Positions 5,513 to 36,582 of a stretch of DNA of 44,694 bases are shown piece after piece. The notes beneath the pieces are model-generated. The model did not search any database and was not told the origin of the DNA. It saw only the letters and a list, made by a program, of their open reading frames with translations. This DNA comes from Dethiobacter alkaliphilus AHT 1 (GTDB lineage Bacteria; Bacillota; Dethiobacteria; Dethiobacterales; Dethiobacteraceae). The DNA lies in NCBI RefSeq assembly GCF_000174415.1, contig NZ_ACJM01000020.1, forward strand, positions 1 to 44,694, in the 5' to 3' direction. Position 1 is the first letter of the stretch. Each line of letters starts with the position of its first letter. The position numbers and the translations under genes were made by a program.

Positions 5513-5593
5513 GCACTGATAGGAAATTTATAACGCTTCGCAGATAGCGAAGCTTCTAATGTGAGCAGTGCTGAAAAGAGCGCGCCTTTATTG
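5513..5593 (+). repeat. Dispersed structured repeat, copy A
   Basis: One of five copies. The closing stem is GCACTG (5513-5518) with CAGTGC (5566-5571). Inside it is the hairpin GCTTCGC-AGATA-GCGAAGC at 5535-5553. The tail GAGCGCGCCTTTATT is shorter than in copy B and lacks the second arm of the terminal hairpin. It sits between the VanW terminator and nfeD, reading in the direction of both genes. Confidence 0.8.
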
Positions 5594-5702
5594 CACTTCA
5601 GAAGATTAAAGACTCTGTTAAAGAATTCTCATTAACAATATATTATAAATAAGGAAAAGGAGGCATATTCATTTACAACAGAAGCGGGAGGGAGGGTGGT
5701 TA

Positions 5703-7061
5703 TTGCTGAAAAACAAAACTTTTTTTATTTGCAAGGTATTTGTAATCATTGCGATAATTACAATGCATTTCAGTGGCATGTTCACTTCCCGGATCGACGC
5801 TGCCGCTGACAGGCCTGTCTGGGTAGTTAACCTTGACGGGACCATTACCGCCGGACAGTTTAATTTTCTGCAGCGTCAGGTGGAGAGTGCGGAGGAAAAT
5901 GGGGCCCAGTTATTTGTCCTGGTTATGAATACGCCCGGAGGTCTGGTTGATGCTACCATGAAGATTAACGAGTTATTTCTTAATGCAGAATTACCAACGG
6001 CGGTTTTGGTAGCACCGTCAGGAGCCATTGCCGCTTCGGCTGGAGCGTTTATTACCCTGTCTGCAGATATTGCCGCCATGGCGCCGGGAACATCGGTGGG
6101 AGCGGCCCAACCTGTGGCCATATCCATGGAGGGCACTGAAGTGGCAGATGATAAAACAACGCAGTTTCTGGCTCAGCATCTGCGCAGTATGGCAGAAGTT
6201 CAGGGGCGCCCGGCAGATGTAGCCGAGCGTTTTGTGACGGAAAATCTCACCCTTAGTGCGGCGGAAGCTTTGGAGCTTGGGGTTACTGATTATCTGGCTA
6301 ATAACCTGGAAGATTTATTGGCCCAGGTGGATGGTTTAGTCGTGGAGAAGCAGGGGCGCTCTTACACATTAAATACAGCTGATCCGCAGCTTGAAGAGCA
6401 GGAAATGAACCTGCGGGAAAGGTTGCAGAACTGGCTCAGTGACCCTCAGATATCTTTTTTAGTGTTGATGTTTGGAGTTATGGGTATCTATCTGGGCATT
6501 AGTGCGCCGGGTACTTTTGTTCCGGAGGTATTGGGAGCTATTTTGCTGATAATGGGTATTTATGGAATAGGGTTATTTGACACCAATACCACCGGAATTA
6601 TTCTGCTTTTGTTGGGAGCAGGACTAATAATTGCAGAAATATTCACCTCCGGTTTTGGTGTATTTGGTATAGGTGGGGGTATCTCGCTTCTGGCGGGAGC
6701 GGTTTTATTGCCCGTTGAACCGTTGATGGCCCCGGAGTGGTACGGCTCCTTTATCGTCATGGTATTTGGAGCGGTTGTAAGTTTGACCATCATCTCTTTG
6801 TTAGTTGCCTATAGAGTAATGGTAAGTCGCAAGCGTTGGCGCCACGGCAGCCAATACTTTGACGCCCCTCGCCGCGGCGTGGTGGTAGAGGAGTTGTCAC
6901 CATACGGGATGGTAAAATCCAGAGGAGAGCTGTGGAAGGCTCGTTCTTTGGATGGGTCTTCTATTCCGGTGGGAACCGAGGTGGATGTAGAGCGGAAAGA
7001 GAGTCTTGTTTTGGTGGCAACTCCGGTGATTGACGGGAAAGGAGACGACCAGGCGCAATAA
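5703..7061 (+). CDS. NfeD-family membrane-bound ClpP-class serine protease
   Basis: A long-form NfeD protein (452 residues): signal sequence (about 1-34), ClpP-like protease domain outside the membrane (about 38-215), four to five membrane helices (about 250-370), and a soluble OB-fold NfeD domain (about 385-445, starting RRGVVVEEL). Ser112 in the AASAG motif is the likely nucleophile, and Lys151 is a candidate general base, as in the Ser-Lys dyad of archaeal 1510-N. These proteases are thought to cleave stomatin-type partners; a stomatin gene follows 15 bases later, which is the classic operon. The TTG start at 5703 is supported by GGGAGGGAGGG upstream. Confidence 0.9.
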   Translation: MLKNKTFFICKVFVIIAIITMHFSGMFTSRIDAAADRPVWVVNLDGTITAGQFNFLQRQVESAEENGAQLFVLVMNTPGGLVDATMKINELFLNAELPTAVLVAPSGAIAASAGAFITLSADIAAMAPGTSVGAAQPVAISMEGTEVADDKTTQFLAQHLRSMAEVQGRPADVAERFVTENLTLSAAEALELGVTDYLANNLEDLLAQVDGLVVEKQGRSYTLNTADPQLEEQEMNLRERLQNWLSDPQISFLVLMFGVMGIYLGISAPGTFVPEVLGAILLIMGIYGIGLFDTNTTGIILLLLGAGLIIAEIFTSGFGVFGIGGGISLLAGAVLLPVEPLMAPEWYGSFIVMVFGAVVSLTIISLLVAYRVMVSRKRWRHGSQYFDAPRRGVVVEELSPYGMVKSRGELWKARSLDGSSIPVGTEVDVERKESLVLVATPVIDGKGDDQAQ

Positions 7062-7076
7062 AAGGAGGTTGTTTGT

Positions 7077-7850
7077 ATGGAGTTTGATGTCAGTTTCTTT
7101 TTGATTCCGGTTATCGTTGTATTGGTTTCCTTTTTGGGCTCGGCCATTAATGTGGTGCGCGAGTATGAGCGGTTGGTAGTTTTTCGGCTGGGCAGGCTGA
7201 TCGGGGAAAAAGGTCCCGGCTTGGTTCTCATTATTCCCATAGTGGATCGGGTGGTTCGTGTTTCTTTACGTATTGTAACTCTGGATGTGCCAACACAGGA
7301 GGTGATAACCAAAGATAATGTCACCACCAGTGTAAATGCCGTGGTTTATTATCGGGTTATTGATCCCAACCGGTCGGTAAACAACGTAGAGGAATATACT
7401 GTGGCTACGGCACAGTTGGCACAGACCACCTTGCGCAGCGTGGCGGGTCAGGCCGATTTGGATGAACTTCTTTCTGAACGTGATAAACTAAACCAGCAAA
7501 TCCAGAAAATCCTGGACGATGCCACCGATGTTTGGGGAATTAAGGTGACGGCAGTGGAAATTAAGGATGTAATTATTCCCGAAGGCCTCCAGCGTGCCAT
7601 TTCCCGTCAGGCAACGGCGGAAAGGGAGCGACGCGCCGTGGTTGTTCAGGCTTTAGGTGAAAAAGAAGCGGCGGAAAAGATTGCCGAGGCCGCAAAAATC
7701 CTAAACTCCCAGGAAGGCGGTTTTTATGTCCGGCTGCTGCGCTCTTTGCCGGAGATTGCCCAGCAGTCGGGTAATATGCTGGCCTTTCCCCTGCCGGTAG
7801 AGCTGCGTCATTTGTTCCCGCCCCTTGGCAAAAACAGTGACGATGATTAA
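7077..7850 (+). CDS. SPFH/Band 7 protein, prokaryotic stomatin (slipin)
   Basis: A 257-residue membrane-associated scaffold protein. One N-terminal helix (about 4-24) is followed by an SPFH domain starting NVVREYERLVVFRLGRL and including GPGLVLIIPIVDRVVRVSLR. A charged coiled coil follows (RQATAERERRAVVVQALGEKEAAEKIAEA, about 177-207), then a short hydrophobic C-terminus. Such proteins form oligomeric rings in membrane microdomains and are substrates or partners of NfeD. AAAAGGAGGTTGTTT precedes the ATG. The gene is certainly co-transcribed with the NfeD gene upstream, and a strong terminator follows. Confidence 0.92.
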   Translation: MEFDVSFFLIPVIVVLVSFLGSAINVVREYERLVVFRLGRLIGEKGPGLVLIIPIVDRVVRVSLRIVTLDVPTQEVITKDNVTTSVNAVVYYRVIDPNRSVNNVEEYTVATAQLAQTTLRSVAGQADLDELLSERDKLNQQIQKILDDATDVWGIKVTAVEIKDVIIPEGLQRAISRQATAERERRAVVVQALGEKEAAEKIAEAAKILNSQEGGFYVRLLRSLPEIAQQSGNMLAFPLPVELRHLFPPLGKNSDDD

Positions 7851-7911
7851 AACACAATCCAGCTCTGCCATGAGACTCTGATGCAAACCTCTGTAAAATA
7901 GAAAAAACTAC

Positions 7912-7936
7912 AGGCCCGGACCCCGGGCCTTTTTTC
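7912..7936 (+). terminator. Intrinsic terminator of the nfeD-stomatin operon
   Basis: AGGCCCGG and CCGGGCCT form an 8-bp GC-rich stem with a 3-base loop, followed by five T. It lies 60 bases after the stomatin stop. Confidence 0.9.
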
Positions 7937-8004
7937 TGTGGAAAATGGATAAGTGTGCTGCGCCAGTTTAAAATAATAGTGACTGAATGCAGAGGGGTTT
8001 GCTT

Positions 8005-8817
8005 ATGAGCAGAAAGCGCCTGGTAATGTTGTTTTTCGGCCTGGGACTAGCCATATTGTTGATTACCATGGTTACCAAAGCCCATGTAGTGACTGTTAAG
8101 CACTATGAGGTGGCAATTGAGGAATTGCCGCCTGCTTTTGATGGTTTGCGCATTCTTCATGTTACCGATTTGCACAGTAAGAAATATGGTGATAAACAAA
8201 AAGGCTTAGCAGAACTTTTAGACAAAGAGGAATATGATTTAGTAGCTGTTACCGGAGATATTGTGGATATGAGAAACAGGAGTTTGGAGCCTGCTACTAA
8301 GTTTATTGAACTGTTGGGGGACAAACCGGTATTCTTTGTTCCCGGAAATCATGAGGTTAAAACAGGGATTGAATTCAGAACGAAACTGGATGAATTGGAA
8401 GTAACCCGATTGGAGAACAGGGCGCTAAAGTTTCAATATGGGGGGCAGCATATCTGGTTGGTGGGGGTTAATGATCCGCACGAAGATCGGGATAAGTTGG
8501 CAAACGCCCTAAGCGAGGTTATCGATGGTTCACCCAGGGTACTTCTGGCTCATTCACCTACCATATTTGAACAGGCGGTGAAGCAGGAAATCGATTTGGT
8601 ATTGGTCGGCCATACCCACGGAGGCCAGATTCGCTTACCCTTTTTAGGGGTATTGTTTATTTCCGGACAGGGTCTGTTTCCCCGATATGTGTACGGGGAG
8701 TATATGGAAGGAAAAACAACCATGATTGTAAACAGCGGCATTGGAGAAACTGTGTTTAATATCCGATTAAAGACCAATCCGGAAATTGTTATTGTAACCT
8801 TGCGGCCTATAAGTTAA
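8005..8817 (+). CDS. Metallophosphoesterase, membrane-anchored (YkuE-like)
   Basis: A calcineurin-like phosphoesterase of about 270 residues with one N-terminal membrane helix (about 5-23). The five metal-site motifs are present in order: DLH in HVTDLHSKK, GD in VTGDIVD, GNHE in FVPGNHEVK, H in LLAHSPT, and GHTHGGQ in VLVGHTHGGQIRLP. Both di-metal ligands and the catalytic His are therefore kept. YkuE-type relatives act at the cell envelope; the true substrate is unknown. The start at 8005 is chosen over the ATG at 7987 because GAGGGG lies 7 bases before it. It appears to be a single-gene unit. Confidence 0.85.
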   Translation: MSRKRLVMLFFGLGLAILLITMVTKAHVVTVKHYEVAIEELPPAFDGLRILHVTDLHSKKYGDKQKGLAELLDKEEYDLVAVTGDIVDMRNRSLEPATKFIELLGDKPVFFVPGNHEVKTGIEFRTKLDELEVTRLENRALKFQYGGQHIWLVGVNDPHEDRDKLANALSEVIDGSPRVLLAHSPTIFEQAVKQEIDLVLVGHTHGGQIRLPFLGVLFISGQGLFPRYVYGEYMEGKTTMIVNSGIGETVFNIRLKTNPEIVIVTLRPIS

Positions 8818-8892
8818 ATTATTCGGTGTAGGAATTCGGTTTCTAAAATAGAATAATATAATGGTATTATAAATGAGGCAGGGAGGTGTTTT

Positions 8893-9471
8893 ATGATTAA
8901 AGAAGGTTTCAGTAAGTTTTACTGGGGATTTTTTTTCATTCTCATTAGTTTTCGCATTCAGGGGTTGGACATCATTCCTGATATTGTGGGTTTTATCCTC
9001 ATAGCTGACGGGGTGGGTAAGCTGCTGTCAGAGAGCGATTATTTCCAAACTGCACAAAAATATACCCTCCCCATGATTCTTCTGTCTATCTTTAGTATTT
9101 ATGAACCGCCGGTAGAGCAAGCTGGAATTAATTTCGGTTTTTTAGGCCCAATGGGAGTATTGATTTCCATTGCTTCTTTGGTGTTAACCCTATTGCTGGC
9201 CTATAATATCTTTATGGGGATCAAAGAGATGGCAGAGCAGCGTAATAAGACTGCAATAGCAGCAGAAGCCGAACAGAGGTGGAACCAATTTTTGTGGCTG
9301 AATCTGGCATATATACTTCTGTTTGTGTTAATCTTTGTCCCTCCACTGGCAATTTTAATGATAATTGGGCTATTAATCGCATCCATTGCTTTAACCATCG
9401 CAATTATGCGGTTAATGAAGCAGTGTGAAGAGGAACTGCTGCCCTCCGACACACAGTTTAGGGATGCTTAA
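8893..9471 (+). CDS. Integral membrane protein, unknown function
   Basis: A 192-residue protein with about five hydrophobic segments (residues 8-25, 28-45, 56-70, 80-108 and a long one at 135-178). The opening, FYWGFFFILISFRIQGLDIIPDIVG, resembles a conserved type of Firmicutes membrane protein of unknown role. No catalytic motif is visible. GCAGGGAGGTGTTTT precedes the ATG, and TATAAT-like sequence at 8856-8862 may be its promoter. A strong terminator follows within 10 bases of the stop. Confidence 0.72.
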   Translation: MIKEGFSKFYWGFFFILISFRIQGLDIIPDIVGFILIADGVGKLLSESDYFQTAQKYTLPMILLSIFSIYEPPVEQAGINFGFLGPMGVLISIASLVLTLLLAYNIFMGIKEMAEQRNKTAIAAEAEQRWNQFLWLNLAYILLFVLIFVPPLAILMIIGLLIASIALTIAIMRLMKQCEEELLPSDTQFRDA

Positions 9472-9480
9472 CTCTAGAGG

Positions 9481-9506
9481 ACCGTCCTTTGCGACGGTTC
9501 TTTTTT
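9481..9506 (+). terminator. Intrinsic terminator after the membrane protein
   Basis: ACCGTC and GACGGT form a 6-bp stem with a 6-base loop, followed by TCTTTTTT. Repeat copy B begins at the next base. Confidence 0.85.
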
Positions 9507-9606
9507 GTACTGCTAGAAATTATAACGCTTCGCAGATAGCGAAGCTGCTAATGTGAGCAGTACTGAAAAGAGCGCGCTGAGGAAACCGAAAGAGCGCGCC
9601 TTTCTT
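9507..9606 (+). repeat. Dispersed structured repeat, copy B (most complete)
   Basis: The closing stem is GTACTGCT (9507-9514) with AGCAGTAC (9556-9563), a perfect 8 bp. Inside is the hairpin GCTTCGC-AGATA-GCGAAGC. The tail forms a second hairpin, GCGCGCT with AGCGCGC, then CCTTTCTT, which looks like a terminator. An alternative local pairing, CTGCT (9545-9549) with AGCAG (9556-9560), excludes the closing stem. No protein is encoded; a 70-codon open frame over this stretch lacks a ribosome site. Confidence 0.85.
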
Positions 9607-9608
9607 GT

Positions 9609-9675
9609 AAGGAATTATAACGCAGATAGCGAAGCTGCTAAGGTAAGCAGTACTGATATGCGCGCTGTTCTTTTA
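9609..9675 (+). repeat. Dispersed structured repeat, copy C (decayed)
   Basis: It follows copy B in tandem after 2 bases. It keeps GGAATTATAACG, AGATAGCGAAGCTGCTAA and AGCAGTACTGA but has lost CTTCG, which removes the left arm of the inner hairpin. The left arm of the closing stem is also missing. From 9676 to about 9890 I see only AT-rich sequence without features. Confidence 0.75.
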
Positions 9676-9893
9676 CTTTATATTGGTAGCAGGAAGATGG
9701 TTGTGAAAGTGCGGGACAAAAGTACTGTGAATTTTATCCTGGGACATATTTTGGAGCTCTTTTAGCCTAGGAAGCATTATTTTATATAGGCTTTGCTGAT
9801 GAGGCTTACAAATAAGGAAAAATGGCAGTAAATTGAAAAATCTGAACAGTTTCGTAAACCATGATTTGCAGAGAGGTTTTGTGGGGTATTGCG

Positions 9894-9920
9894 TGGTATA
9901 ATTCTCTACAACGACGTTGT
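9894..9920 (+). promoter_or_regulatory. Extended -10 promoter with downstream palindrome
   Basis: TGGTATAAT at 9894-9902 is an extended -10 element (TGn plus TATAAT); no good -35 is seen. Six bases later ACAACG-A-CGTTGT (9908-9920) is a perfect 13-base palindrome at the expected transcription start, a position typical of a repressor site. It would drive the lipoprotein gene at 10029 with a leader of about 120 bases. Confidence 0.55.
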
Positions 9921-10028
9921 TGGGCTTATGCTAAGGAATGTTGTAACAAACTCCAAAGGGGGGATAGTCAGCCGGCATTGTTTGAAGCTTCATGAAACTT
10001 AAACCATAACATCAAGGAGGGGCAAAAA

Positions 10029-11093
10029 TTGTTAAAGAAGGGTTTATTAGTTTCGCTGGTTGTATTGTTGGCAGGTGTGTTACTTATCGGATGCGGGGAA
10101 ACAGAAGGTACACCGGATGCGGAACCCGGTTCCCTGGAAGGTCGCTATGTGGGGTACTCATGGCGTGGTGAGGCCGGTGGTACCACACTGGAAGAAGCAG
10201 ACCGCTATATTGAGACAATTTTGGAGCTCGATGAAGACGGTATCATCCAAGATGCTAAAATGCGCTTTTTCGTTCAGGTAGACGGTTACTGGACAACCCG
10301 TCAAAGCGGTCAGGCCTATGTTGATGTGGATTTCTCCGTAGATCCTACTCCTGCAGTACCGGGTGAAGACTACGAACAGGGAGATTCCATGTTCACTGTT
10401 TACACCGTGGATATGATGTCTTTATATACTGCTGCTGTAGATTCGGACGGAACTGTAGCTGCTGCCATTGTAGATCCCGTTCTCCGTTACATGCATGAAA
10501 TGAAATTCCCTGCTGATTTCGATTTTGACCGCACCGTGGGTGAACTGACAATCGGCAGTGGACTGGCCGTTCCCACTACCCGGACTTCCGGTTCCGGACT
10601 AATAAGACCAGATAACTGGGATGATCTTGCTGATAACACTCTGTTTGATGTTTCTCCCTGGTCTCACGTCTTAACCGATGAAGGTACAATGGCAGGAATC
10701 TCCGACTCCTCCACAGTACAGGAACTGCTGGAAGCTTTAGGCGTAGAATTTGTTGACGGTGTACCTCAGGAAATGGATGCCGTGTACGGACGTTATGGCC
10801 TGGGCGGCTGGGACGGTAACTTCAATGCTATTGCCGAATACCTGATTGGCCAGGATGCAACTGAGTATACTTCCTTAATTGACTGGTCCGTTGAGCGCTA
10901 TTCCGCCAATATTGATGAAGACAATCAGTTTGGTCTTGATACAGAGTCCGGTGCTACACGCACTGTGCAGGATTCCATTGATGGAATTTCCGGTGCAACT
11001 GTTCGTCTTTCCCGCGAATCCACCTCCTATCAGAGAGCGCTGGTGGAAGCAGGGATTATCAGTGAAGCAGACGTGATTATCGGCCGCTTCTAA
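10029..11093 (+). CDS. Lipoprotein with a C-terminal FMN-binding-type motif
   Basis: A 354-residue secreted lipoprotein. The signal peptide ends at lipobox LIGC (Cys22). An acidic, soluble body follows, with no membrane helices. Near the C-terminus DGISGATV (Thr324) fits the S/T-GAT motif where ApbE attaches FMN covalently to threonine in FMN-binding domains. The rest of the protein does not clearly match a family I know, so the FMN assignment is tentative. The start is TTG with AAGGAGGGG upstream. The high Asp/Glu content suits a surface protein of a salt- or alkali-adapted cell. It has its own promoter and terminator. Confidence 0.7.
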   Translation: MLKKGLLVSLVVLLAGVLLIGCGETEGTPDAEPGSLEGRYVGYSWRGEAGGTTLEEADRYIETILELDEDGIIQDAKMRFFVQVDGYWTTRQSGQAYVDVDFSVDPTPAVPGEDYEQGDSMFTVYTVDMMSLYTAAVDSDGTVAAAIVDPVLRYMHEMKFPADFDFDRTVGELTIGSGLAVPTTRTSGSGLIRPDNWDDLADNTLFDVSPWSHVLTDEGTMAGISDSSTVQELLEALGVEFVDGVPQEMDAVYGRYGLGGWDGNFNAIAEYLIGQDATEYTSLIDWSVERYSANIDEDNQFGLDTESGATRTVQDSIDGISGATVRLSRESTSYQRALVEAGIISEADVIIGRF

Positions 11094-11120
11094 ATTGTTA
11101 AATTAGAAAATGCAAAAATA

Positions 11121-11149
11121 AAAGGGCTGCCTTGAGGCGGCCCTTTTTT
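11121..11149 (+). terminator. Intrinsic terminator after the lipoprotein gene
   Basis: AAGGGCTGCC and GGCGGCCCTT form a 10-bp stem with one G-U pair and a TTGA loop, followed by six T. It lies 30 bases after the stop. Confidence 0.9.
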
Positions 11150-11251
11150 GCTGCCTGCTGCCAAAATAATCCTATGGTTGTTTTAACTCTTAACCCGGCA
11201 TATAAGTTAGGAAAGATATTATTAGCAGACTGATGTTTTGGAGGTGCTGCT

Positions 11252-11428
11252 TTGCGGAGTATCTCGTATCTTATTGCTTGTCCCAAGTGCAAGGCCGCCA
11301 GGAGAATCCTCGCTGATGAAATTCTTGAATCAGCTTTTGTCTTATGTTTAAAGTGTTATGAAATTAATGCGGTGAGCAGAACAGAAGTAATGCAGGTAGT
11401 GGGGGATAATCCGGACATCTTAGAGTAG
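11252..11428 (+). CDS. Zinc-ribbon microprotein, unknown function
   Basis: A 58-residue protein with two CxxC pairs, CPKC (residues 10-13) and CLKC (32-35), spaced as in a zinc ribbon. The start is TTG at 11252 with GGAGGT 6 bases upstream. The C-terminus is acidic and contains no further motif. It lies between the lipoprotein terminator and the large protease. A role in nucleic acid or protein binding would be typical of zinc ribbons but is not shown here. Confidence 0.65.
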   Translation: MRSISYLIACPKCKAARRILADEILESAFVLCLKCYEINAVSRTEVMQVVGDNPDILE

Positions 11429-11539
11429 AAGAAATGTTGCCCTTATGATAGACTAGGGGTGAACGGTTAGATTAGAAAAACATGTTTAAGATTAGCTACC
11501 AAAGTCAGAAAATTCTGATATTAACCCGGAGGGTTTAGG

Positions 11540-15223: not shown

Positions 15224-15283
15224 AGAAAAAAGAGTTATGTGCATTTTCAGAGAAGTTAAGGGATAGGCATAGTAATGTTTAAT

Positions 15284-15318: not shown

Positions 15319-15336
15319 CTTGGTGCTATTCGGTTT

Positions 15337-15803: not shown

Positions 15804-15897
15804 TAAGACTATATGTTTATTGTGTCCTGGCTTACAATAAAATACTTAGCTTTTATTGTTTGAAGTAATCAACAAATTAGGGGAGAGTGACAAAAGC

Positions 15898-17190: not shown

Positions 17191-17192
17191 AG

Positions 17193-26930: not shown

Positions 26931-27160
26931 TAACTTAAAACCTCCTGAAATTTTGGTATACGTCTAATGGTTAGTATATGCCTGCAACAATATGCAAGCC
27001 CCTCTGGAAAGTAAAATTATTATTTGCTTAACAGAGTATAAGTATGTTCTTAACTATTGTAGCAGGAAAACATTGTTTAATGTAGAAATAAATACTATAG
27101 CGTTGGAATTTTTAAGGTTTTGTAAGATTTGTGGCAGCAAGTTTAAAAGGAGGTGTTCCT

Positions 27161-27790: not shown

Positions 27791-27809
27791 TTCAGTGAGG
27801 TGATTGATT

Positions 27810-28928: not shown

Positions 28929-29643
28929 AGTGTGGGTACATTTGCGGACTCCCTTGCTTCTCATCGCCCTGGGTGCAATATTAATTATTTATGTGGTTAA
29001 TAACCCGGGCGGGGCAATAGCTGCCAGAGCGCTGACGTACCCCAATGTCCTGCGTTATTTGCGGGAACATGTTGTTCTGGTGATTGCGGCTATGGTGCTG
29101 GCAGTACTTGTGGGTATACCTGTGGGGATTATGCTCACCCGGCCCAAGTTAAGAAGAATAGGGAAAGTAATTGAGACTTTTGTTAATATCGGCCAAACCG
29201 TTCCCAGCCTGGCTATTCTGGCACTGTTTTTTGTTTATCTGGGCCTGGGCTTTAATACTGCATTGTTTGCTTTGTGGTTGTACAGCATTTTGCCGATTTT
29301 ACGCAATACTTATGCCGGTATTACCAGCATAGAGCCGGAAATCCTGGAGGCTGCCCGCGGCATGGGTATGACGCCGTGGCGAACCCTCTATAAGATTGAA
29401 CTGCCATTGGCATTGCCGGTACTAATGGCCGGTGTCCGCACTTCTACTGTAATCTGCGTTGGAACAGCTACTCTTGCTACCTTTATTGGTGGTGGTGCAC
29501 TGGGTGACCTGATAAAAACCGGTATCCAGGTTAGAAGAGATATACTTGTTTTTACCGGAGCAGGTCTGAGTGCTTTGCTGGCTATCCTGCTTGATTACCT
29601 GGCGGGTCAGGCAGAGATTGCTATATTAAATAAAAGAAACTAG
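28906..29643 (+). CDS. Osmoprotectant ABC transporter permease (OpuCD/OpuBD-like)
   Basis: A 245-residue permease, paralogous to the gene at 27161. It has an N-terminal helix (about 13-31), then the same core with the EAA loop EPEILEAARGMGMTPWRTLYK. The two permeases probably pair as a heterodimer. The start is GTG at 28906, inside the end of the ATPase gene, with GAGGTGG upstream, so translation is probably coupled. Confidence 0.9.
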   Translation: MTQNRLSKVWVHLRTPLLLIALGAILIIYVVNNPGGAIAARALTYPNVLRYLREHVVLVIAAMVLAVLVGIPVGIMLTRPKLRRIGKVIETFVNIGQTVPSLAILALFFVYLGLGFNTALFALWLYSILPILRNTYAGITSIEPEILEAARGMGMTPWRTLYKIELPLALPVLMAGVRTSTVICVGTATLATFIGGGALGDLIKTGIQVRRDILVFTGAGLSALLAILLDYLAGQAEIAILNKRN

Positions 29644-29658
29644 GAGGGGATTTAAAGT

Positions 29659-30600
29659 ATGAAAGTTAAAGGAAGGTTTTTGATTTTTGCTGCTTTGTTT
29701 CTGCTAGTAGCTCTAACCGCTCTGGGGTGTGGTGATAATCAGGCAGAAGGCTGGGTCTTTGCTACAGACCATGAATATTCTGTGCGGCCTGATGGCTATC
29801 CTGGAGTCACAGATCTCTACGGATTTGAATTTGATGACGTGATTATTATGGATCAGGGCATAACATATCAGGCTCTGCGAGATGGCGATGTGGCGGTTGC
29901 CATGGGCTTTGCCACAGACGGCCGTATTGCCGCCTTTGATTTGGTCAATCTGGAAGATGATAAAGAATTCCATCCGGTCTACAATGTAGCGCCCAATGTG
30001 CTGACCGCAACCTTGGAAGAATACCCCGAGATAGAAGGGCTTTTAAACAGCGTGGTACCGCTTTTGGATGAAGAAACCATGTCCGAGTTAAACGCCAGGG
30101 TTGATATCGAAGGGTATGAACCGGATGAAGTGGCTTATGAGTTTCTCCTGGATAACGGTTTGATTAGTGAAACAGCCGCCGATGGCGACAAAGGACCTAT
30201 TTCCATCGGCTCCAAAGAGTTTACAGAGCAGTTGCTGTTAGGTCAGATGGCGGTTCTGCTGCTGGAGAATGACGGTTTTCAAGTAGAAGATAATACCGGT
30301 CTGGGTGGCACCTCCATAGTCAGGGAAGCACTGGAAAATGATGAAATCCAGATTTATTGGGAATACACCGGCACAGCTTGGATGACCCACTTCGGCAATG
30401 AAGAAGCGATCACCAATCCGGAAGAATGCTATGCACTGGTTAAAGAAGAAGATGCCAACAATGGTATTACCTGGTTGGATTATTCAGACTTCAATAACAC
30501 CTATACTTTTATGATGCGTCGGGCAGATGCTGACAGTCTGGGCATTACCACCATCAGTGATCTGGCTGAGGCTATTAACGAAGGAGTTCCTGCACCATAA
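29659..30600 (+). CDS. Osmoprotectant-binding lipoprotein, circularly permuted (OpuCC-like)
   Basis: The substrate-binding subunit, 313 residues, with a signal peptide ending at LGC (Cys24). In the usual OpuCC/OsmoF order the IGSKEFTEQ...LGGT...EYTGT...TISDL half comes first and the RPDGYPG...YGFEF...TDGRI...DDK...VD half second. Here the second half comes first (residues 30-168) and the first half last (about 180-309), joined by an acidic linker. All family motifs are present once, so it is a circular permutation, not a duplication. A binding site for a quaternary amine is expected to be formed from both halves. GGAGGGGATTTAA precedes the ATG. Confidence 0.9.
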   Translation: MKVKGRFLIFAALFLLVALTALGCGDNQAEGWVFATDHEYSVRPDGYPGVTDLYGFEFDDVIIMDQGITYQALRDGDVAVAMGFATDGRIAAFDLVNLEDDKEFHPVYNVAPNVLTATLEEYPEIEGLLNSVVPLLDEETMSELNARVDIEGYEPDEVAYEFLLDNGLISETAADGDKGPISIGSKEFTEQLLLGQMAVLLLENDGFQVEDNTGLGGTSIVREALENDEIQIYWEYTGTAWMTHFGNEEAITNPEECYALVKEEDANNGITWLDYSDFNNTYTFMMRRADADSLGITTISDLAEAINEGVPAP

Positions 30601-30625
30601 ATGACAAAACAAAATAGACACAAAC

Positions 30626-30652
30626 AAAGCCACGGAATTTTCCGTGGCTTTG
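30626..30652. terminator. Bidirectional terminator between the transporter and the DUF4321 gene
   Basis: AAGCCACGGA and TCCGTGGCTT form a 10-bp stem with an ATTT loop. T follows on the plus side and AAAC precedes, so it can stop both convergent genes. Confidence 0.75.
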
Positions 30653-30657
30653 TTGCA

Positions 30658-30906
30658 TCAAAGACGGGTGTAGATGAAAAAAGCTATGAAGAAGCCCAGG
30701 ATGGTGGCGATGTTTAATCTAAGCATGATGCCCAGGGTAAGGGTGAGAGGGGCCAGATCGATGGTGGTGGGGCTAAGGCCGATGGTGCGGCTGTAGCTGA
30801 GAAAGGGCAAGGCGCCGCTGAAAATTTCTCCCAGCAGAGATCCGAAGATGCTGCCGATGATCAGTAAGATGAGTAGAATGCCTGTTGATTTGGTTACTTT
30901 GGGCAA
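30658..30906 (-). CDS. DUF4321 family membrane protein
   Basis: An 82-residue protein with two membrane helices (about 8-28 and 60-80) separated by SYSRTIGLSPTTIDLAPLTLTLG. This matches DUF4321, a Clostridia protein of unknown role, often near cell-shape genes. The start is TTG at 30906, chosen for AGGAGG upstream; the longer frame from 30993 has no ribosome site. Confidence 0.75.
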   Translation of the reverse strand: MPKVTKSTGILLILLIIGSIFGSLLGEIFSGALPFLSYSRTIGLSPTTIDLAPLTLTLGIMLRLNIATILGFFIAFFIYTRL

Positions 30907-31153
30907 AATATGTACCTCCTGTTGTCTGACGGAATAATATTCCTTTCGACGTTTTGGGACATGAATCCTGTTTGAGAGGAGGCAGTTCTGCACAGTCAGG
31001 ACTTTTTTCCTAATAGGCGATGGGTTATTACAATATTCTTAAATCATACTAAACTAACAGGTTATATTATCAATATGTCAAATAAATATCCTGTTGGACG
31101 TTGGGAATATTAACTTTATCAGTAGACAAAGACAGAAAGGATGATGATTTGAA

Positions 31154-31426
31154 ATGCCGTTATTTCTGATTAAAAGAAACTTTGGTAAGATTACCGATGA
31201 ACAATTAGGTTCTAAAGCATCCACGTCAAAGAAAGTTTGCTCTGCAATGCCCGGTGTTACCTGGGTAAGGAGTTACCTCTCCCTGGAAAACGATGAGAAA
31301 GTCACCTACTGCATTTATGAGGCACCGGATGCCGACACTGTGGCCAAACAGGCAAAAGATGCCGGCCTTCCCGCCGATGAAGTAATTCCTCTGGAAGCAG
31401 AGATTGATCCGGACACTGTTCAATAA
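31154..31426 (+). CDS. DUF4242 family protein
   Basis: A 90-residue small alpha/beta protein. GVTWVRSYLSLENDEKVTYC and YEAPDADTVAKQAKDAGLP match DUF4242, a ferredoxin-like barrel whose Streptomyces member has been described as nickel-binding. AAAGGATGATGATTTGAA precedes the ATG. The role here is unknown. Confidence 0.8.
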   Translation: MPLFLIKRNFGKITDEQLGSKASTSKKVCSAMPGVTWVRSYLSLENDEKVTYCIYEAPDADTVAKQAKDAGLPADEVIPLEAEIDPDTVQ

Positions 31427-31431
31427 AATTA

Positions 31432-31468
31432 GAGTAAGCCTCCAAAATAAAGGAGGCTTACTCTTTTG
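31432..31468. terminator. Terminator between DUF4242 and the small helical genes
   Basis: GAGTAAGCCTCC and GGAGGCTTACTC form a perfect 12-bp stem, followed by TTTTG on the plus strand. It also ends the minus-strand genes arriving from 31470. Confidence 0.85.
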
Positions 31469-31469
31469 T

Positions 31470-31646
31470 TTAGAGCTGCTTTGCCGCATATTCACATTCA
31501 AGGATGCACATGCGCACCCGGTGGGCCGATTCTTCCAACGTGGAACGGAGGTTTTTATCCTCGGTACTCATAGCCAGCTCTTTTAGCTGATTGACAATTT
31601 TCTGATATTCCATAATGCATTCATGTATTTGCTGGGTCTGGGACAA
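31470..31646 (-). CDS. Small helical cysteine-containing protein, second of a pair
   Basis: A 58-residue, mostly helical protein (QQIHECIMEYQKIVNQLKELA, then SAHRVRMCILECEYAAKQL). Three cysteines sit on the helices. The start is TTG at 31646 with AAAGGAG 8 bases upstream. It follows the gene at 31660 by 13 bases. I do not recognise a family; the pattern resembles one half of a four-helix bundle. Confidence 0.55.
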   Translation of the reverse strand: MSQTQQIHECIMEYQKIVNQLKELAMSTEDKNLRSTLEESAHRVRMCILECEYAAKQL

Positions 31647-31659
31647 CCGCGCCACTCCT

Positions 31660-31839
31660 TTACTTTAGCTTTTCCTTGGCATCAAGGCAGAGGTGAATAC
31701 TTAACTCAATATTGCGGTCAGCTTCCGCCAAAGCGTAGCGCCCGCGATGATTTACCATTTCATTGGCTATACTGCGAACTTTCATGGCGTTTTGAGTGCA
31801 ACGGTCAATACACTGCTGAATTTCAGCTTCAGAAACCAG
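31660..31839 (-). CDS. Small helical cysteine-containing protein, first of a pair
   Basis: A helical protein of about 59 residues (EAEIQQCIDRCTQNAMKVRS, then DRNIELSIHLCLDAKEKLK). The open frame extends to a GTG at 31905, which has no ribosome site. AGGAGGTGAATAAC instead points to a CTG start at 31839, which is rare. The CxxxC pair at residues 9-13 and a later Cys resemble the partner gene at 31470. Two tiny, related helical proteins in tandem suggest a complex. The start choice is uncertain. Confidence 0.5.
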   Translation of the reverse strand: MVSEAEIQQCIDRCTQNAMKVRSIANEMVNHRGRYALAEADRNIELSIHLCLDAKEKLK

Positions 31840-31988
31840 GTTATTCACCTCCTGTAGTTTGTTTTGTTTAGTATTTAGAAGAATCAAAGCGTTTATGTAG
31901 TTCACATGGCTTAAGTTTGATGCCTTGTTTTAAATATATGGAGGCTGGTAACAATAAGACTAAACGGTATTGGAAAGGAGCAATATTG

Positions 31989-32282
31989 ATGAGGGATAAA
32001 CAGGCCTATGAGCAAAAGATGGAAGCTGAAATGAAACAATTGGAGGCTAAGGTTACTCAGTTGGAGGCAAATCTGCAAAGTATGCAGGCCGACCGTCAAT
32101 TGGAAGCAAAAAAGGAACTGTCACGATTAGACGAGCAGTTTTCTGAAGCCAAAGAGAAATGGCAGGATCTCAAAGCTGCGGGTGATAAAGGATGGGACGA
32201 TATTCGGGAAGGTTTTGAAAATGCCTGGTCCGATGTGACCCATTCATTTGACAGAGCAGGAGATGAATTCAAAGACATTTAG
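31989..32282 (+). CDS. Coiled-coil protein, sll1863-like stress family
   Basis: A 97-residue, highly charged protein. A long coiled coil (about 5-65) with KQLEAKVTQLEANLQSMQ is followed by GWDDIREGFENAWSDVTHSFDRA. This resembles small coiled-coil proteins of the sll1863 stress-response type. The ATG at 31989 has AAAGGAG 8 bases upstream. The terminator of this gene starts in the stop codon. Confidence 0.7.
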   Translation: MRDKQAYEQKMEAEMKQLEAKVTQLEANLQSMQADRQLEAKKELSRLDEQFSEAKEKWQDLKAAGDKGWDDIREGFENAWSDVTHSFDRAGDEFKDI

Positions 32283-32308
32283 CCGTGAAATGCGGCTTAT
32301 TTTTTTTG
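32281..32308 (+). terminator. Intrinsic terminator overlapping the coiled-coil stop
   Basis: AGCCG and CGGCT form a 5-bp stem with a 7-base loop, followed by TATTTTTTTT. Confidence 0.7.
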
Positions 32309-32395
32309 TATAAAAACCGTGCAATTAACCGGATTCTGTACTATAATACTTGTATAGTTAAAATATTTACATATATAATTAAAAGGGGTGGAAAA

Positions 32396-33250
32396 GTGGC
32401 TGTAAGAATTCTGACAGACAGTGCGTGTGACTTGCCTAAGCAGGTTGTGGCGGAATATGGAATTGATGTGGTACCTCTTATGGTGTATAAGGATGATAAG
32501 GAGTACCAAGATGGAGTAACCCTCAAACCGGCTGAAATGTTTGGCCATATGCGGCAGGGAACAATCTATAAAACAGCCCAGGTTCCGCCCGGCTCTTTTC
32601 TGGAAAAGTTTGGGGAATATGGCAAAAACGATGATAGCTGTATCTATCTGGCCTTTTCCTCAGAGTTGTCCGGCACCCATGATTCTGCTTTGTTGGCCAG
32701 AGACCAATTACAGGAAGCGGAAACTTCCCTGAAGTTGGATATTATCGATACCAAATGCGCTTCCATGGGTTTTGGTTTGGTGGTTTATCTGGCGGCACGG
32801 ATGGCCAAAGAAGGCAAATCTCATGCAGAAATAGTTGCGGCGGCACAGCAAAACGCCCAACATATGGAACATCTTTTTACAGTAGATGACCTGGAGTATC
32901 TGTACCGTGGGGGACGGGTCAGCCGAACTGCTGCTTTTGTGGGAGGAATTCTAAATATTAAGCCGGTCCTTCATGTGCAGGATGGTCGTTTAATTCCTCT
33001 GGAAAAAGCCCGGGGGCGTAAAAAAGCCATAAAACGTATGGTGGAAATTATGGGTGAGCGGGGCAGAAATTTTAATGAGCAGGTTATTGGCATCAGTCAC
33101 GGTGATGACCTGGCCGCAGCCGAAGAACTAAAGACTTTGCTGGAACAGCAATATGGCTGCCGGGAATTCATGATCAGTGATGTGGGCTGTGCCATCGGTG
33201 CCCACTCCGGGCCGGGTACTTTGGCCTTGTTCTTTTTGAATAATACCTAA
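32396..33250 (+). CDS. DegV family fatty-acid-binding protein
   Basis: A 284-residue DegV (FakB-type) protein. The N-terminus VRILTDSACDLPK and the segments FSSELSGTHDSA and YRGGRVSRTAAFVGGILNIKPVL are diagnostic. FakB proteins bind a fatty acid and present it to the kinase FakA for use in phospholipids. The start is GTG at 32396 with AAGGGGTGG upstream. No fakA is nearby. Confidence 0.9.
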   Translation: MAVRILTDSACDLPKQVVAEYGIDVVPLMVYKDDKEYQDGVTLKPAEMFGHMRQGTIYKTAQVPPGSFLEKFGEYGKNDDSCIYLAFSSELSGTHDSALLARDQLQEAETSLKLDIIDTKCASMGFGLVVYLAARMAKEGKSHAEIVAAAQQNAQHMEHLFTVDDLEYLYRGGRVSRTAAFVGGILNIKPVLHVQDGRLIPLEKARGRKKAIKRMVEIMGERGRNFNEQVIGISHGDDLAAAEELKTLLEQQYGCREFMISDVGCAIGAHSGPGTLALFFLNNT

Positions 33251-33257
33251 AATTATT

Positions 33258-33283
33258 GCGCGCCTCAGGCGCGCTTTTCTTTT
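33258..33283 (+). terminator. Intrinsic terminator after degV
   Basis: GCGCGCC and GGCGCGC form a 7-bp stem with a TCA loop, followed by TTTTCTTTT. The T-tract runs into the next promoter. Confidence 0.9.
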
Positions 33284-33310
33284 GCAAATATCTCCAAAAT
33301 CCGATAAGAT
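33282..33310 (+). promoter_or_regulatory. Sigma-A-type promoter for the decarboxylase
   Basis: TTGCAA (33282-33287), a 17-base spacer and TAAGAT (33305-33310), 32 bases upstream of the TTG start at 33343. Confidence 0.6.
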
Positions 33311-33342
33311 TAACCTTAAAAGATATCGTAGGGGGAATTAAG

Positions 33343-34749
33343 TTGGATACAGAGCAGTTTCGCAAGTATGGTTATGAATTTGTGGACTGGATTGCTGATT
33401 ATATGGAGAAAGTTGAACAGCTCCCGGTTCGCTCTGAAGTCCTGCCCGGGGAGATAAAGAAGCAATTACCCCATGCACCGCCGCAGCAGGGTGAGCCCAT
33501 GGCTCAGATATTCAGTGACTTTCAACAAATCATTATGCCGGGGATTACCCATTGGCAGCATCCGTGTTGGTTTGCTTATTTTCCTGCCAATAACAGCCCG
33601 GCTTCGGTGCTGGCAGAAATGTTAACTGCCGGCATGGGGGCACAGGCCATGGTATGGCAGACTTCACCGGCGGCTACCGAATTAGAAGAAGTGGTGATGG
33701 AATGGTTACGCCAGATGCTGGGGCTGCCGGAAGAAATGGAGGGTGTAATTCAGGATACAGCTTCAACATCCACGCTGTGTGCTCTCTTGACTGCCAGGGA
33801 AACGGCCACTGGATTTATGGCCAATGAAGAGGGCATGCGGCAACCATTGGTAGTCTACGCCTCCACAGAGGGGCATTCCAGTATCGATAAAGCGGTGAAA
33901 ATTGCCGGCTATGGCAAAAAAAATCTGCGCCACATTCCCACCGATGAAAACTATGCCATGATTCCTGAAAAGCTGGAGGAAGCTATAAAAAATGATGTGG
34001 CAGCAGGTTTGATTCCAGCTTGCGTTGTGGCCAGTGTGGGGACCACATCTTCAACTGCGGTGGATCCGGTACGGAAAATCGGCGAAATTTGCCGCCGCCA
34101 CAACGTCTGGCTCCATGTTGATGCCGCTTTTTCCGGAACTGCGGCCATTGCCGAAGAGAATCGCTGGATGCTGGACGGGGCTGAGTACATAGATTCATTT
34201 GTTTTCAATCCACATAAATGGATGCTGACTAATTTTGACTGCTCCGCATACTTTGTCCGGGATACGGAAAAGCTGATTCGCACCTTTGAAATTCATCCGG
34301 AATACCTGAAAACCGGTGCCGATAAAGAGGTGAAAAATTTCCGCGACTGGGGAATTCAGCTGGGTCGACGCTTCCGGGCTCTAAAACTCTGGTTTGTCAT
34401 CCGCTCCTACGGCGTGGAAGGTATCCGACAGATGGTTAATGAGCATCTCCGTCTGGCAAGGCTATTTAAGGAGTGGATAGAAGAAGAAAAGCACTTTGAA
34501 GTGCTGGCCCCGGTCCATGTCAGCCTGGTGGTGTTTCGCCTTAATAACGGCGCCGCAGAAGATGAGCTGGACTCCTTAAACCGTCTATTGCTGGAGAAGG
34601 TAAATGCTACAGGAGAGGTTTTTTTAACTCATACCTCCCTGGGTGGACGCTATGCCATTAGGATGGCCATCGGACAGCGGACAACGCAGGAACACCATGT
34701 TCGTGAAGCGTGGGATATTATCCGGGCCAAAGCAGCAGAGACATTGTAA
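33343..34749 (+). CDS. PLP-dependent aromatic L-amino acid decarboxylase family protein
   Basis: A 468-residue group II decarboxylase. The PLP-binding Lys292 is in FNPHKWM, the PLP-ring Asp in HVDAAFSG, and the N-terminal segment PGITHWQHPCWFAYFPANNSPAS lines the substrate pocket as in aromatic decarboxylases. Likely substrates are Tyr, Trp, Phe or DOPA, giving trace amines; sequence alone does not decide between them. The start is TTG at 33343 with GTAGGGGG upstream. It is monocistronic behind its own promoter. Confidence 0.88.
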   Translation: MDTEQFRKYGYEFVDWIADYMEKVEQLPVRSEVLPGEIKKQLPHAPPQQGEPMAQIFSDFQQIIMPGITHWQHPCWFAYFPANNSPASVLAEMLTAGMGAQAMVWQTSPAATELEEVVMEWLRQMLGLPEEMEGVIQDTASTSTLCALLTARETATGFMANEEGMRQPLVVYASTEGHSSIDKAVKIAGYGKKNLRHIPTDENYAMIPEKLEEAIKNDVAAGLIPACVVASVGTTSSTAVDPVRKIGEICRRHNVWLHVDAAFSGTAAIAEENRWMLDGAEYIDSFVFNPHKWMLTNFDCSAYFVRDTEKLIRTFEIHPEYLKTGADKEVKNFRDWGIQLGRRFRALKLWFVIRSYGVEGIRQMVNEHLRLARLFKEWIEEEKHFEVLAPVHVSLVVFRLNNGAAEDELDSLNRLLLEKVNATGEVFLTHTSLGGRYAIRMAIGQRTTQEHHVREAWDIIRAKAAETL

Positions 34750-34820
34750 GGACATATTAATAAACGGAATTCTGTTTATTGACTACAATAGGAGTAACTA
34801 TTTATATCAGGAGGTCCCTT

Positions 34821-36092
34821 GTGAATAAAGAAAAAAAGTTCTGGTTGTTTGCCTCCATGTTGCTCTTAATTGCCATACTTGCCTGGTGGAGTGCCATCCC
34901 GTTTGACACAGAAGTGTTCATTGTCCGGCAGCTAAATCGTCTGGCGGCAGTCTTGGGTTTTTTATTTTTCTTTGTGCAGTTTCTGCTAAGCGCCCGCCTC
35001 AAGCTGATTGAAGAAGGTTTTGGCCTGGACAGGATGCTGCGCTATCACCGCAACGTTGGTCGTCTGGCCCTTGGTTTCTTGCTGCTTCATCCGGCATTGT
35101 GGCTCATTTACGAGAGGCAGCAGGGTATTTTGTTTATTTGGACCGTCTTTCGCATAATCGGGATTGTGGTCCTGGTGGGCCTGATGATAACAGCTGCGGT
35201 GGCGGCTCTTTATAAAAAACTTAATCTGCCTTATGAATTATGGCTAAACATCCATAAAGCAAATTATATCTTATTCCCGTTGGTGTTTGTTCATGTCTTT
35301 GCTAATGCGTTTCCAGGTACGGGGCTGTTTTATCTCTGGATAGTCTTAGCAGTACTGTTTGCCCTCCTCATAATCCATAAACTCAGAAGAGAGATTCAGC
35401 TGCGAAAAAATCCCTTTGAAGTAGTGGATGTAAAACAGGAAGCCGCTGATATCTGGAGCCTGTATTTTAAGGGAAACTCCTTTTCATATCAGCCGGGGCA
35501 GTTTATGCATCTGCGTCTTTTGCGGGATGGCGAAGTGTCTTCGCCACATCCTTTTACCATTTCCTCCAGCCCCACACGGGAACTGGTATCTGTTACGGCA
35601 AAGGAGTTGGGTGATTTTACGCAGACTATAAAAAACACCAAGGTTGGCCACAAAGCTTACATTGATGCACCGTATGGAGTGTTCAGCTTCGTTAACAGCA
35701 GCACCGAAAAGCTGGCTTTTATCGCCGGTGGTATTGGTATTACGCCTTTTATGAGCATGCTGCGGTATATGTATGACAACCAGATTGACCGGAAAATAAC
35801 TTTACTTTGGGGCAATAAAAGTGAAGAGGAACTATGTTTTAGTGATGAACTGGCTGTAATGGAGAGAGAAATGGATAACCTGCAGCTTGTCCGGATAATG
35901 TCCAGGCAAAAAGACTGGCCCGGAGAAAAGGGGCGGGTTGACCGGGAGAAGATTGAAAAGTATATTCCCGATTACGCAGAGCACCAGTTTTATGTGTGCG
36001 GGCCGCCGGCCATGAGCCGGGCCACCATTGAGGCTCTAAAGTCCATGGGCATTACAAAGGACCAAATCCATCATGAGTTGTTTGAATTATAA
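34821..36092 (+). CDS. Ferric-reductase-like membrane protein with FAD/NAD(P)H-binding domain
   Basis: A 423-residue protein. Residues 1-200 hold about six helices with conserved His (YHRNVGRLALGFLLLHP, HKANYILFPLVFVH) that would bind two hemes, as in ferric reductase-like domains. Residues 205-423 form a ferredoxin-reductase module: FAD motif HPFTISSSP, NAD(P)H motif IAGGIGITPFMSML, and the end motif FYVCGPPAM. It could move electrons from NAD(P)H across the membrane. The start is GTG at 34821 with AGGAGG 6 bases upstream. A terminator overlaps the stop. Confidence 0.87.
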   Translation: MNKEKKFWLFASMLLLIAILAWWSAIPFDTEVFIVRQLNRLAAVLGFLFFFVQFLLSARLKLIEEGFGLDRMLRYHRNVGRLALGFLLLHPALWLIYERQQGILFIWTVFRIIGIVVLVGLMITAAVAALYKKLNLPYELWLNIHKANYILFPLVFVHVFANAFPGTGLFYLWIVLAVLFALLIIHKLRREIQLRKNPFEVVDVKQEAADIWSLYFKGNSFSYQPGQFMHLRLLRDGEVSSPHPFTISSSPTRELVSVTAKELGDFTQTIKNTKVGHKAYIDAPYGVFSFVNSSTEKLAFIAGGIGITPFMSMLRYMYDNQIDRKITLLWGNKSEEELCFSDELAVMEREMDNLQLVRIMSRQKDWPGEKGRVDREKIEKYIPDYAEHQFYVCGPPAMSRATIEALKSMGITKDQIHHELFEL

Positions 36093-36116
36093 TACACGGG
36101 AAACCGTGTATTTTTT
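36091..36116 (+). terminator. Intrinsic terminator overlapping the reductase stop
   Basis: AATACACGG and CCGTGTATT form a 9-bp stem with a GAAA loop, followed by TTTT. Repeat copy D begins at the next base. Confidence 0.85.
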
Positions 36117-36218
36117 ATACTGCTTAGGAAATTATAACGCTTCGCAGATAGCGAAGCTGCTAAGGAAACCAGTATCGAAAAGCACGCGCTGAGGGAATCG
36201 AATTAGCGTGCTTTTTTT
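36117..36218 (+). repeat. Dispersed structured repeat, copy D
   Basis: The closing stem is ATACTG (36117-36122) with CAGTAT (36170-36175), a compensated version of copy B. The inner hairpin GCTTCGC-AGATA-GCGAAGC is identical to the others. The tail hairpin AGCACGC with GCGTGCT followed by seven T differs from copy B in both arms but keeps pairing. Confidence 0.85.
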
Positions 36219-36323
36219 AATCCTTTATTTATGATAAAACAAGCTGTTTTGTCTTACAGTAGTAGTAGAAAGAAAATTTACGACAATATCCTACATGTAA
36301 AGGAATGAAGAAAGGTGAACATT

Positions 36324-36491
36324 ATGGATTCACGATTTGAATATATGATCCGTTACCGGACAGCCGCAGGCAAAACAGCGGGACTATATAAAGGTATGAG
36401 CAAAGAAGAGCTGGATCAGATGATTGATTCACTGCGCGAAGATGGCTGTGTGGTTGAAAAAGTGGAAATTATCAGAAGAACAGGTGGCTGA
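36324..36491 (+). CDS. 55-residue conserved-type small protein, unknown function
   Basis: A short basic protein (RYRTAAGKTAGLYKGMSKEELDQMIDSLRED, given here in part). The mix of a beta segment and an acidic helix suggests a small alpha/beta fold. AAAGGTG 6 bases before the ATG and a terminator in the stop codon support it as real. It lies between two repeat copies. I do not recognise a family. Confidence 0.6.
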   Translation: MDSRFEYMIRYRTAAGKTAGLYKGMSKEELDQMIDSLREDGCVVEKVEIIRRTGG

Positions 36492-36515
36492 CCCGGGTAA
36501 CCGGGTCTTTTTTTT
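36490..36515 (+). terminator. Intrinsic terminator overlapping the small-protein stop
   Basis: GACCCGG and CCGGGTC form a 7-bp stem with a GTAA loop, followed by eight T. Repeat copy E begins 3 bases later. Confidence 0.9.
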
Positions 36516-36518
36516 GCC

Positions 36519-36582
36519 GGAAATTATAACGATTCGCAGTTTGCTAAGCTGCTAAGGAACCGAATAAGGCGTGCCTTTCTTA
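36519..36582 (+). repeat. Dispersed structured repeat, copy E (divergent)
   Basis: It keeps GGAAATTATAACG and AGCTGCTAAGGAA, but the inner hairpin is imperfect (GATTCGC against GCTAAGC) and the closing stem is not clear. The tail ends GGCGTGCCTTTCTT. It lies just upstream of the DUF421 gene. Confidence 0.7.

Follow-up and report, generated by a model that had tools for sequence, protein, structure and literature searches.

A structured repeat of about 100 nucleotides behind intrinsic terminators in Dethiobacter alkaliphilus and its relatives, probably a non-autonomous mobile element

Why should a structured repeat recur directly behind intrinsic terminators? The question is raised by contig NZ_ACJM01000020.1 of the soda-lake bacterium Dethiobacter alkaliphilus AHT 1, a stretch of 44,694 nucleotides (nt) that was analysed whole and is here called the window. 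A sequence-only reading of it had listed five copies of the repeat, had taken compensatory changes in the stems as a sign of selection on a structure, and had offered as possible roles a regulatory element in the leader of the downstream gene, an element of the transcript end, or a small mobile element that inserts beside terminators. We find that the repeat is very probably a mobile element. The best explanation as a whole, and in our judgement a probable one, is a non-autonomous element of about 100 nt that lands behind terminators and survives mostly as relics. Insertion is mostly in one orientation, right behind a terminator hairpin and its T-tract, at TTT(T/C)TTR^T; the fold would have served the mobile form, whether RNA or single-stranded DNA, in the lineages from which copies arose, and the majority of copies in the genome would now be decaying.

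Comparison of orthologous gaps in relatives reveals insertion behind a pre-existing terminator at two sites within one genus. Between rplQ and ecfA, one relative (G002) carries the element directly behind the rplQ terminator and another of the same genus (G011) has the same terminator without it; the insertion edge, TTTCTTTA^TATG, was set by eye, the aligner spreading a few bases into the insert. Ahead of holA, the same two genomes align through the same terminator and GGAGG, and the single clean gap is the element. Neither site shows a target duplication or a clear loss of target. The rplQ gap, read in 13 of the 19 loci returned, holds the terminator alone in eight more genomes (G000, which is the window's own, and G004 to G010) and neither terminator nor element in G003 and G021. 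A third gap differs among three genomes: G001 has the element, G000 a shortened copy and Dethiobacter sp. CROMO_A_105 (G010) no element. The gatB gap, considered as a further same-genus empty site, was dropped, the G011 sequence being masked there. Gaps filled in relatives and in G000 alike are few among 63 rows (three with both neighbours matched; C9:5733/L208 by flanks). Together with the dispersed copies and with direct head-to-tail copies (contig C12, 97437 and 97535; C15, 64205 and 64305), the two same-genus empty sites lend strong support to the earlier suggestion of a mobile element inserting beside terminators. Ordinary recombination without a mobile mechanism could produce the head-to-tail copies, and likeness to terminators might arise by chance; against both stand precise ends, empty sites, a target consensus that extends beyond the T-tract and a patchy distribution, so that we find this explanation barely credible and, in our view, refuted by the two empty sites. 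Behind rplQ in G001 (locus L276) there is what looks by eye like a strongly shrunken copy (GTACTG...CAGTAC) at the terminator that carries the full copy in G002, and the two are perhaps independent insertions at one terminator.

The position behind terminators, described by the sequence-only reading as invariable, holds for most copies. With a terminator called as a hairpin of at most -6 kcal/mol and a T-rich end directly upstream, one was found for 89 of 115 copies in the window's genome (34 contigs, 3.112 Mb) against 16 of 340 random nearby positions; after shuffling of the upstream flank except its last 8 bases the call was made in 24 of 115, and a terminator faces the element's other end in 3 of 115. 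Among the relatives' copies, leaving out two of 63 rows that lie too close to a contig end, the count is 53 of 61 (G010 17 of 18, G001 29 of 36, G002 7 of 7) against 13 of 166 controls. Exceptions occur within the window itself: the supposed terminator ahead of copy C (Table 1) is stem 3 and the T-rich tail of copy B, not the terminator of a gene, and no terminator was called in front of a sixth copy. Nor do the copies run with the flanking genes as strictly as had been claimed, for the sixth lies on the minus strand between divergent genes, one for an MFS transporter (minus) and one VanW-like (plus); the upstream gene is co-directional for 88 of the 115 own copies. A diverged copy at L193 771-869 (C31 of G000) lies between 23S and 5S rRNA genes identified with Rfam, has no terminator ahead of it and has fewer T in its tail; because of its place between these genes, transcription along with the rRNA operon is to be expected.

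Target and element 3' end share one consensus, hairpin-TTT(T/C)TTR^T. The comparison used 79 junctions that have TT-R and carry a near-full copy, 47 from the 115 own copies and 32 from the 63 of relatives. T follows the element in 53 of them, compared with 258 of 971 generic terminators (p 1e-12), and three bases before R there are 17 C and 59 T, against 43 C and 756 T in the generic set (p 3e-6), which includes some false terminators that were kept in. An internal control on own copies is weaker and agrees, with T at the first base after the element in 53 of 80 and at the second in 33 of 80 (p 0.002). At the corresponding place, the element's own 3' end has C in 64 of 80. One copy's end thus serves as a target for the next, in keeping with the head-to-tail copies.

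A covariance-model search of the genome and its relatives, as proposed with the sequence-only reading, found the repeat widely dispersed. The model (R1, built from 31 copies, 29 from genome loci and two from the window) gives at least 120 matches at E<=0.1 in G000 which, less five opposite-strand echoes of palindromic copies, leave at least 115 non-overlapping places; 150 of 1292 candidates were scored, so that 115 is a lower bound. Matches at E<=0.001 come from 6 of 39 genomes; no more than 103 candidates were scored in each, and the larger counts are again lower bounds: at least 102 in the window's genome, at least 87 in G001, at least 21 in G010 and at least 16 in G002, which represent three other genera of the family, and one weak match each in G006 and G008. 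There was no R1 match in 33 of 35 further relatives, G011 included, and an exact-pattern scan found six places in G010. Copy D had no match among phages and plasmids, and viral contigs had none to one exact pattern. A tail-pattern search for a longer, autonomous element yielded two extra tail pieces (C13:24807 and C13:58154) and no gene framed between head and tail. The earlier remark that no named family fits stands as far as Rfam covariance models go, with no match at gathering score in the window and only unrelated chance matches to copies B to E at E<=5; no earlier description was noticed in the literature searched, outside which lay most subscription papers and ISfinder.

The element is gene-less and folds into three hairpins. 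Its consensus reads host hairpin, TTTTTT, R, then TACTGGTAGGAAATTATAACGCTTCGCAGTTTGCGAAGCTGCTAAGGTAACCAGTATTGAAAAGCACGCGTTGAGGGAACTGAATAAGCGTGCCTTTCTTR: stem 1 (TACTGGT/ACCAGTA) encloses an internal loop around stem 2 (GCTTCGC/GCGAAGC), and stem 3 (GCACGC/GCGTGC) with its T-rich tail resembles a terminator. Both ends are fixed, the 5' end at TACYGG, the left arm of stem 1, and the 3' end at stem 3 followed by TTTCTTR. All three stems covary, within the window's genome and across four genera. The 93 distinct rows from the window's genome have 93.2% of their cells paired and score 0.228 for covariation, where shuffling gives 0.104 and sliding no more than 0.075; the relatives (63 rows, mostly best-scoring: 38 from G001, 18 from G010 and 7 from G002) score 0.334, with 0.150 after shuffling and no more than 0.088 after sliding. 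Two-sided changes appear in 17 of 20 pairs in either set, and none of 500 shuffles attains the observed score; both alignments were fitted to the structure and are hence biased towards it. A MAFFT alignment of the seeds, which was not so fitted, scores 0.157 against 0.086 for controls, with no two-sided change in stem 2 and a pair-type count not above shuffles (497 of 500 as high). Selection on a structure, which the compensated stems had suggested at the outset, is supported by the covariation of all three stems and appears to act on the mobile form in source lineages; the structure is likely needed for mobility.

Strong stem covariation in a dispersed repeat need not imply a cis-regulatory RNA. 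A cis-acting RNA that selection maintains wherever it occurs, be it a leader, an attenuator, a second terminator or a stabiliser of transcript ends, would also account for the covariation, and it would suit the terminator-like 3' end of the element and the copy in the rRNA operon. We nevertheless consider it quite improbable, since many copies are truncated or internally deleted, few gaps are filled in common with relatives and transcription should in most cases have stopped at the gene's terminator, before it reaches the copy, which also counts against the transcript-end role first proposed. For the copies with a co-directional upstream gene, genes downstream are co-directional slightly more often than background, 69 of 88 (78%) against 90 of 134 (67%); the difference is not significant (p 0.09), and with it the leader or attenuator role, the other cis-acting option of the sequence-only reading, was set aside. 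A functional RNA is expected to favour G-U over A-C where one base of a pair changes. In 129 near-neighbour pairs of copies at >=75% identity, single changes from a Watson-Crick pair led to G-U in 63 cases, to A-C in 83 and to other combinations in 95; a further 85 changes replaced one Watson-Crick pair by another. There is no overall preference for G-U (p 0.12). By stem, the ratio of G-U to A-C is 23 to 56 in stem 1, 22 to 20 in stem 3 and 18 to 7 in stem 2 (p 0.04), the last in favour of a cis-acting RNA. Mismatches in all cells number 70 for G-T and 94 for A-C (p 0.07); together with the near-neighbour changes, we take them to give no clear strand signal.

We take the majority of copies to be remnants of source elements that were under structural constraint, because of the missing G-U preference, the many deletions and the lack of closely similar pairs, and stem 2 leaves room for another view. 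Some observations weigh against an element of the kind we propose. No terminator was called for 26 of the 115 own copies, some of them full length (the exceptions include weak matches, T-tracts without a called hairpin, and the full-length copies C1:77534 and C1:62324). Unconstrained RNAalifold on the 31 seeds predicts stems 2 and 3 and replaces stem 1 with a 4-bp helix. As to present activity, no pair among 87 near-full own copies exceeds 96.1% identity.

Which known system does such an element resemble? Miniature inverted-repeat transposable elements (MITEs) are marked by terminal inverted repeats and a target-site duplication; in our element the ends TACYGG... and ...TTTCTTR are not inverted copies of each other, and the two empty sites show no duplication. 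It is short, dispersed, gene-less and mainly intergenic, as are MITEs, and as are the small mobile sequences RU, BOX and RUP (PMC2229807, PMC3049150), and differs from them in being terminator-specific and oriented. Repetitive extragenic palindromic (REP) sequences with TnpA-REP (REPtrons) are likewise small palindromic repeats in many, mostly intergenic copies (PMC8266576); our repeat departs from them in its three-stem composite form, with no GTAG right before the palindromes and no linked Y1 gene found.

The main rival to our account of movement is that the element is a non-autonomous IS200/IS605-like or REP-like derivative moved by an HUH Y1 transposase, which we regard as rather unlikely. 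In this case the left-end hairpin would correspond to stems 1 and 2 and the right-end hairpin to stem 3; the left cleavage site would survive as the T-tract, and GGAAA and GAAAAG would serve as the guides 5' of the hairpins. Like non-autonomous IS200/IS605 derivatives, for which the name PATE is used, the element has hairpins towards both ends, no inverted terminal repeats and a fixed orientation, keeps its target (the T-tract) on its left and made no duplication at the two empty sites. IS608 and ISDra2 insert in one orientation, keep the target in the left flank, have end hairpins with 5' guides and show a +1 preference (PMC5934647), and the IS200/IS605 logic accounts just as well for a target that is retained and for a preference at +1 (PMC5934647, PMC8266576). 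The window's genome has five Y1 genes. However, none of their five loci has a significant copy, one Y1 gene is flanked by a different repeat, and G010, despite its copies, has no Y1 match at E<=0.001. Further, no TnpA-bearing relative of the element was found, its end hairpins are dissimilar to each other, and its target includes a terminator hairpin, of which the portions of the IS200/IS605 descriptions available make no mention (PMC5934647, PMC8266576). The enzyme may be extinct or have escaped the searches. The different repeat, GTGGACAGAGGGACAGGTTT..TTGTCCAC, stands on both sides of the Y1-transposase gene at C6:60049-60375 of G000 (L194 2120, 2955 and 3775) and is dispersed elsewhere too (L034/L090, L152, L156, L168 and L294); with the Y1 gene it looks like a REP/TnpA-REP pair.

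The best lead to the mobilising machinery is of group IIC intron type, because the group II introns of these genomes occupy the same kind of site. Group IIC introns insert at intrinsic terminators (PMC4424553) and their DNA target is a stem-loop (PMC10190682). In G000, hairpin-TTTTTTG directly precedes the intron that bears a reverse transcriptase (L198); hairpin-TCTTTTTA precedes the intron of G004, and hairpin-CTTTTATA one of those in G010, with the limits GTGCG (start) and CGAT (end) drawn from comparison of the introns; from these insertion sites we infer that they belong to class IIC. A loop in the Rfam model of domain 1 (D1), which reads CCAAAC, CUAAAC and CUAUAC, complements the last four bases before the intron, TTTG, TTTA and TATA, in 3 of 3 cases and is a putative exon-binding site 1 (EBS1). 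The order hairpin, T-tract, R, intron and the fixed orientation are matched by most copies of our element, which differs from group II introns in its length of ~100 nt and in lacking a 5' GUGCG, a gene for reverse transcriptase and any match to the Rfam introns; the search for catalytic intron domains gave no Rfam match in the element, and the same library detects the introns in L198. At L198, about 2400-4304 (C4 of G000), the terminator ahead of the intron and its reverse transcriptase itself comes, by eye, after an integrase-like reading frame and a 3' end resembling that of a tRNA. In relatives, reverse transcriptase loci (L134 in G005, L136 in G011) contain the Rfam RNAs RT-14 and RT-18, which are unrelated to the repeat.

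From these parallels we suggest, tentatively, that reverse-splicing machinery of the group IIC type moves the element, the mobilising enzyme itself not having been found. The terminator-like 3' end of the element would mimic the natural 5' exon of the intron (terminator hairpin, U-tract and R), so that a guide that finds terminators would also take up element RNA and could paste it between a terminator and the downstream DNA at R^T; one guide tolerating C or T at the same position would read both the target and the element end. The element would then be a bacterial counterpart of a short interspersed element (SINE), a gene-less structured RNA parasitising group IIC intron machinery, a step that we hold to be doubtful.

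Several observations count against such machinery. T follows the intron in G000 and G004, and A follows the third intron end (L132 of G010), where two reverse transcriptase genes lie side by side and the end perhaps belongs to the neighbouring intron. RVT_1 co-occurs imperfectly with the element: matches occur in G000 and G010, as a fragment with a stop in G001, and four times in G004, which has terminator-homing group II introns and no element, and G002 has its copies and no RVT_1 match. The guide CAAA of the G000 intron is unpaired with the C of the element's TTTCTTR, and no guide found in these introns fits that C. No enzyme gene was found linked to a copy, as a filter-off scan of the five Y1 loci of G000 and of the group II intron loci gave no significant match (best E 0.049); this weak match, beside the Y1 gene in L194, was by eye another repeat and a terminator.

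A different use of reverse transcription, target-primed from the 3' end of the RNA in the manner of SINEs and long interspersed elements (LINEs), would be expected to leave 5'-truncated copies, and by eye some of these do join the T-tract directly (C12:30589, C25:24113 and C9:115881). There is no excess of 5' truncation, however: half-models give lone 3' and lone 5' halves about equally (22 of each inspected by eye, some being chance or diverged matches), which rules against this route and leaves it very improbable.

Small mobile repeats without inverted ends or target duplications have so far been poorly explained. The present element offers a precise address (terminator hairpin, T-tract, R^T), empty sites within one genus, and four host genera with differing copy numbers. 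Landing behind terminators breaks no gene and can thus be seen as a safe haven, which suggests that intrinsic terminators are a niche for elements beyond group IIC introns. Should the common address reflect common machinery, a group II intron would have its own SINE-like parasite in bacteria.

Within the window, all five copies listed earlier are present, in the same places or a few bases off, copy C by eye and with a model of the 5' half (R3), and the sequence confirms what was written of their common motif, of the hairpin and tail, and of compensation in the stems that close A, B and D; the sixth was absent from that list (Table 1). Copies C and E are deletion derivatives whose fold is no better than that of shuffles. 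Allowing up to two mismatches, GAAATTATAACG occurs 14 times in the window against 4.4 +/- 2.0 expected.

Table 1. Copies of the repeat in the window and the host terminators ahead of them (fold z, fold against shuffles).
Feature	Position	Strand	Model match	Fold z	Remarks
Sixth copy	3968-4060	-	R1 49.8 bits, E 2.1e-9	-3.3	
Host terminator ahead of copy A	5478-5512	+			Hairpin 5478-5508 (called on the minus strand) and T-tract
Copy A	5513-5593	+	R1 64.2 bits, E 9.8e-13	-1.2	Stems 1 and 2 intact, stem 3 mostly deleted
Host terminator ahead of copy B	9476-9506	+			Hairpin 9476-9503, 11 pairs
Copy B	9507-9607	+	R1 108.6 bits	-5.7 (three-stem fold)	Full length, tail to 9607; stem 1 9507-9514/9556-9563, stem 2 9527-9533/9539-9545, stem 3 9572-9577/9594-9599
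Copy C	9609-9675	+	R3 match 9601-9642, E 0.0012	-0.48	Truncated, head-to-tail behind copy B; by eye
Host terminator ahead of copy D	36091-36116	+			Hairpin 36091-36112
Copy D	36117-36219	+	R1 114.7 bits, E 2.2e-24	-3.2	Full length
Host terminator ahead of copy E	36490-36515	+			Hairpin 36490-36507, then eight T
Copy E	36510-36582	+	R1 45.3 bits, E 2.2e-8	0.43	Deletion derivative; stem 1 has lost its 3' arm and stem 3 is mostly missing

Some deletions recur from copy to copy. A similar internal deletion between two GGAAaCCG-like repeats is found in five copies, copy E and those at C8:33821, C8:131714, C4:111042 and C12:52811 of G000, three of which begin GTGCCGG; it may reflect recurrent slippage or a deletion derivative spreading by itself. 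Stem 3 has been mostly lost between its arms repeatedly, in copy A and in L158, L169, L161 and L013, as expected of hairpin deletion during replication. One copy, in L020 at about 1560-1590 (C15:48618-48740 of G000), has ~30 extra bases inserted in its stem 3 loop, which may be a scar left by a different element.

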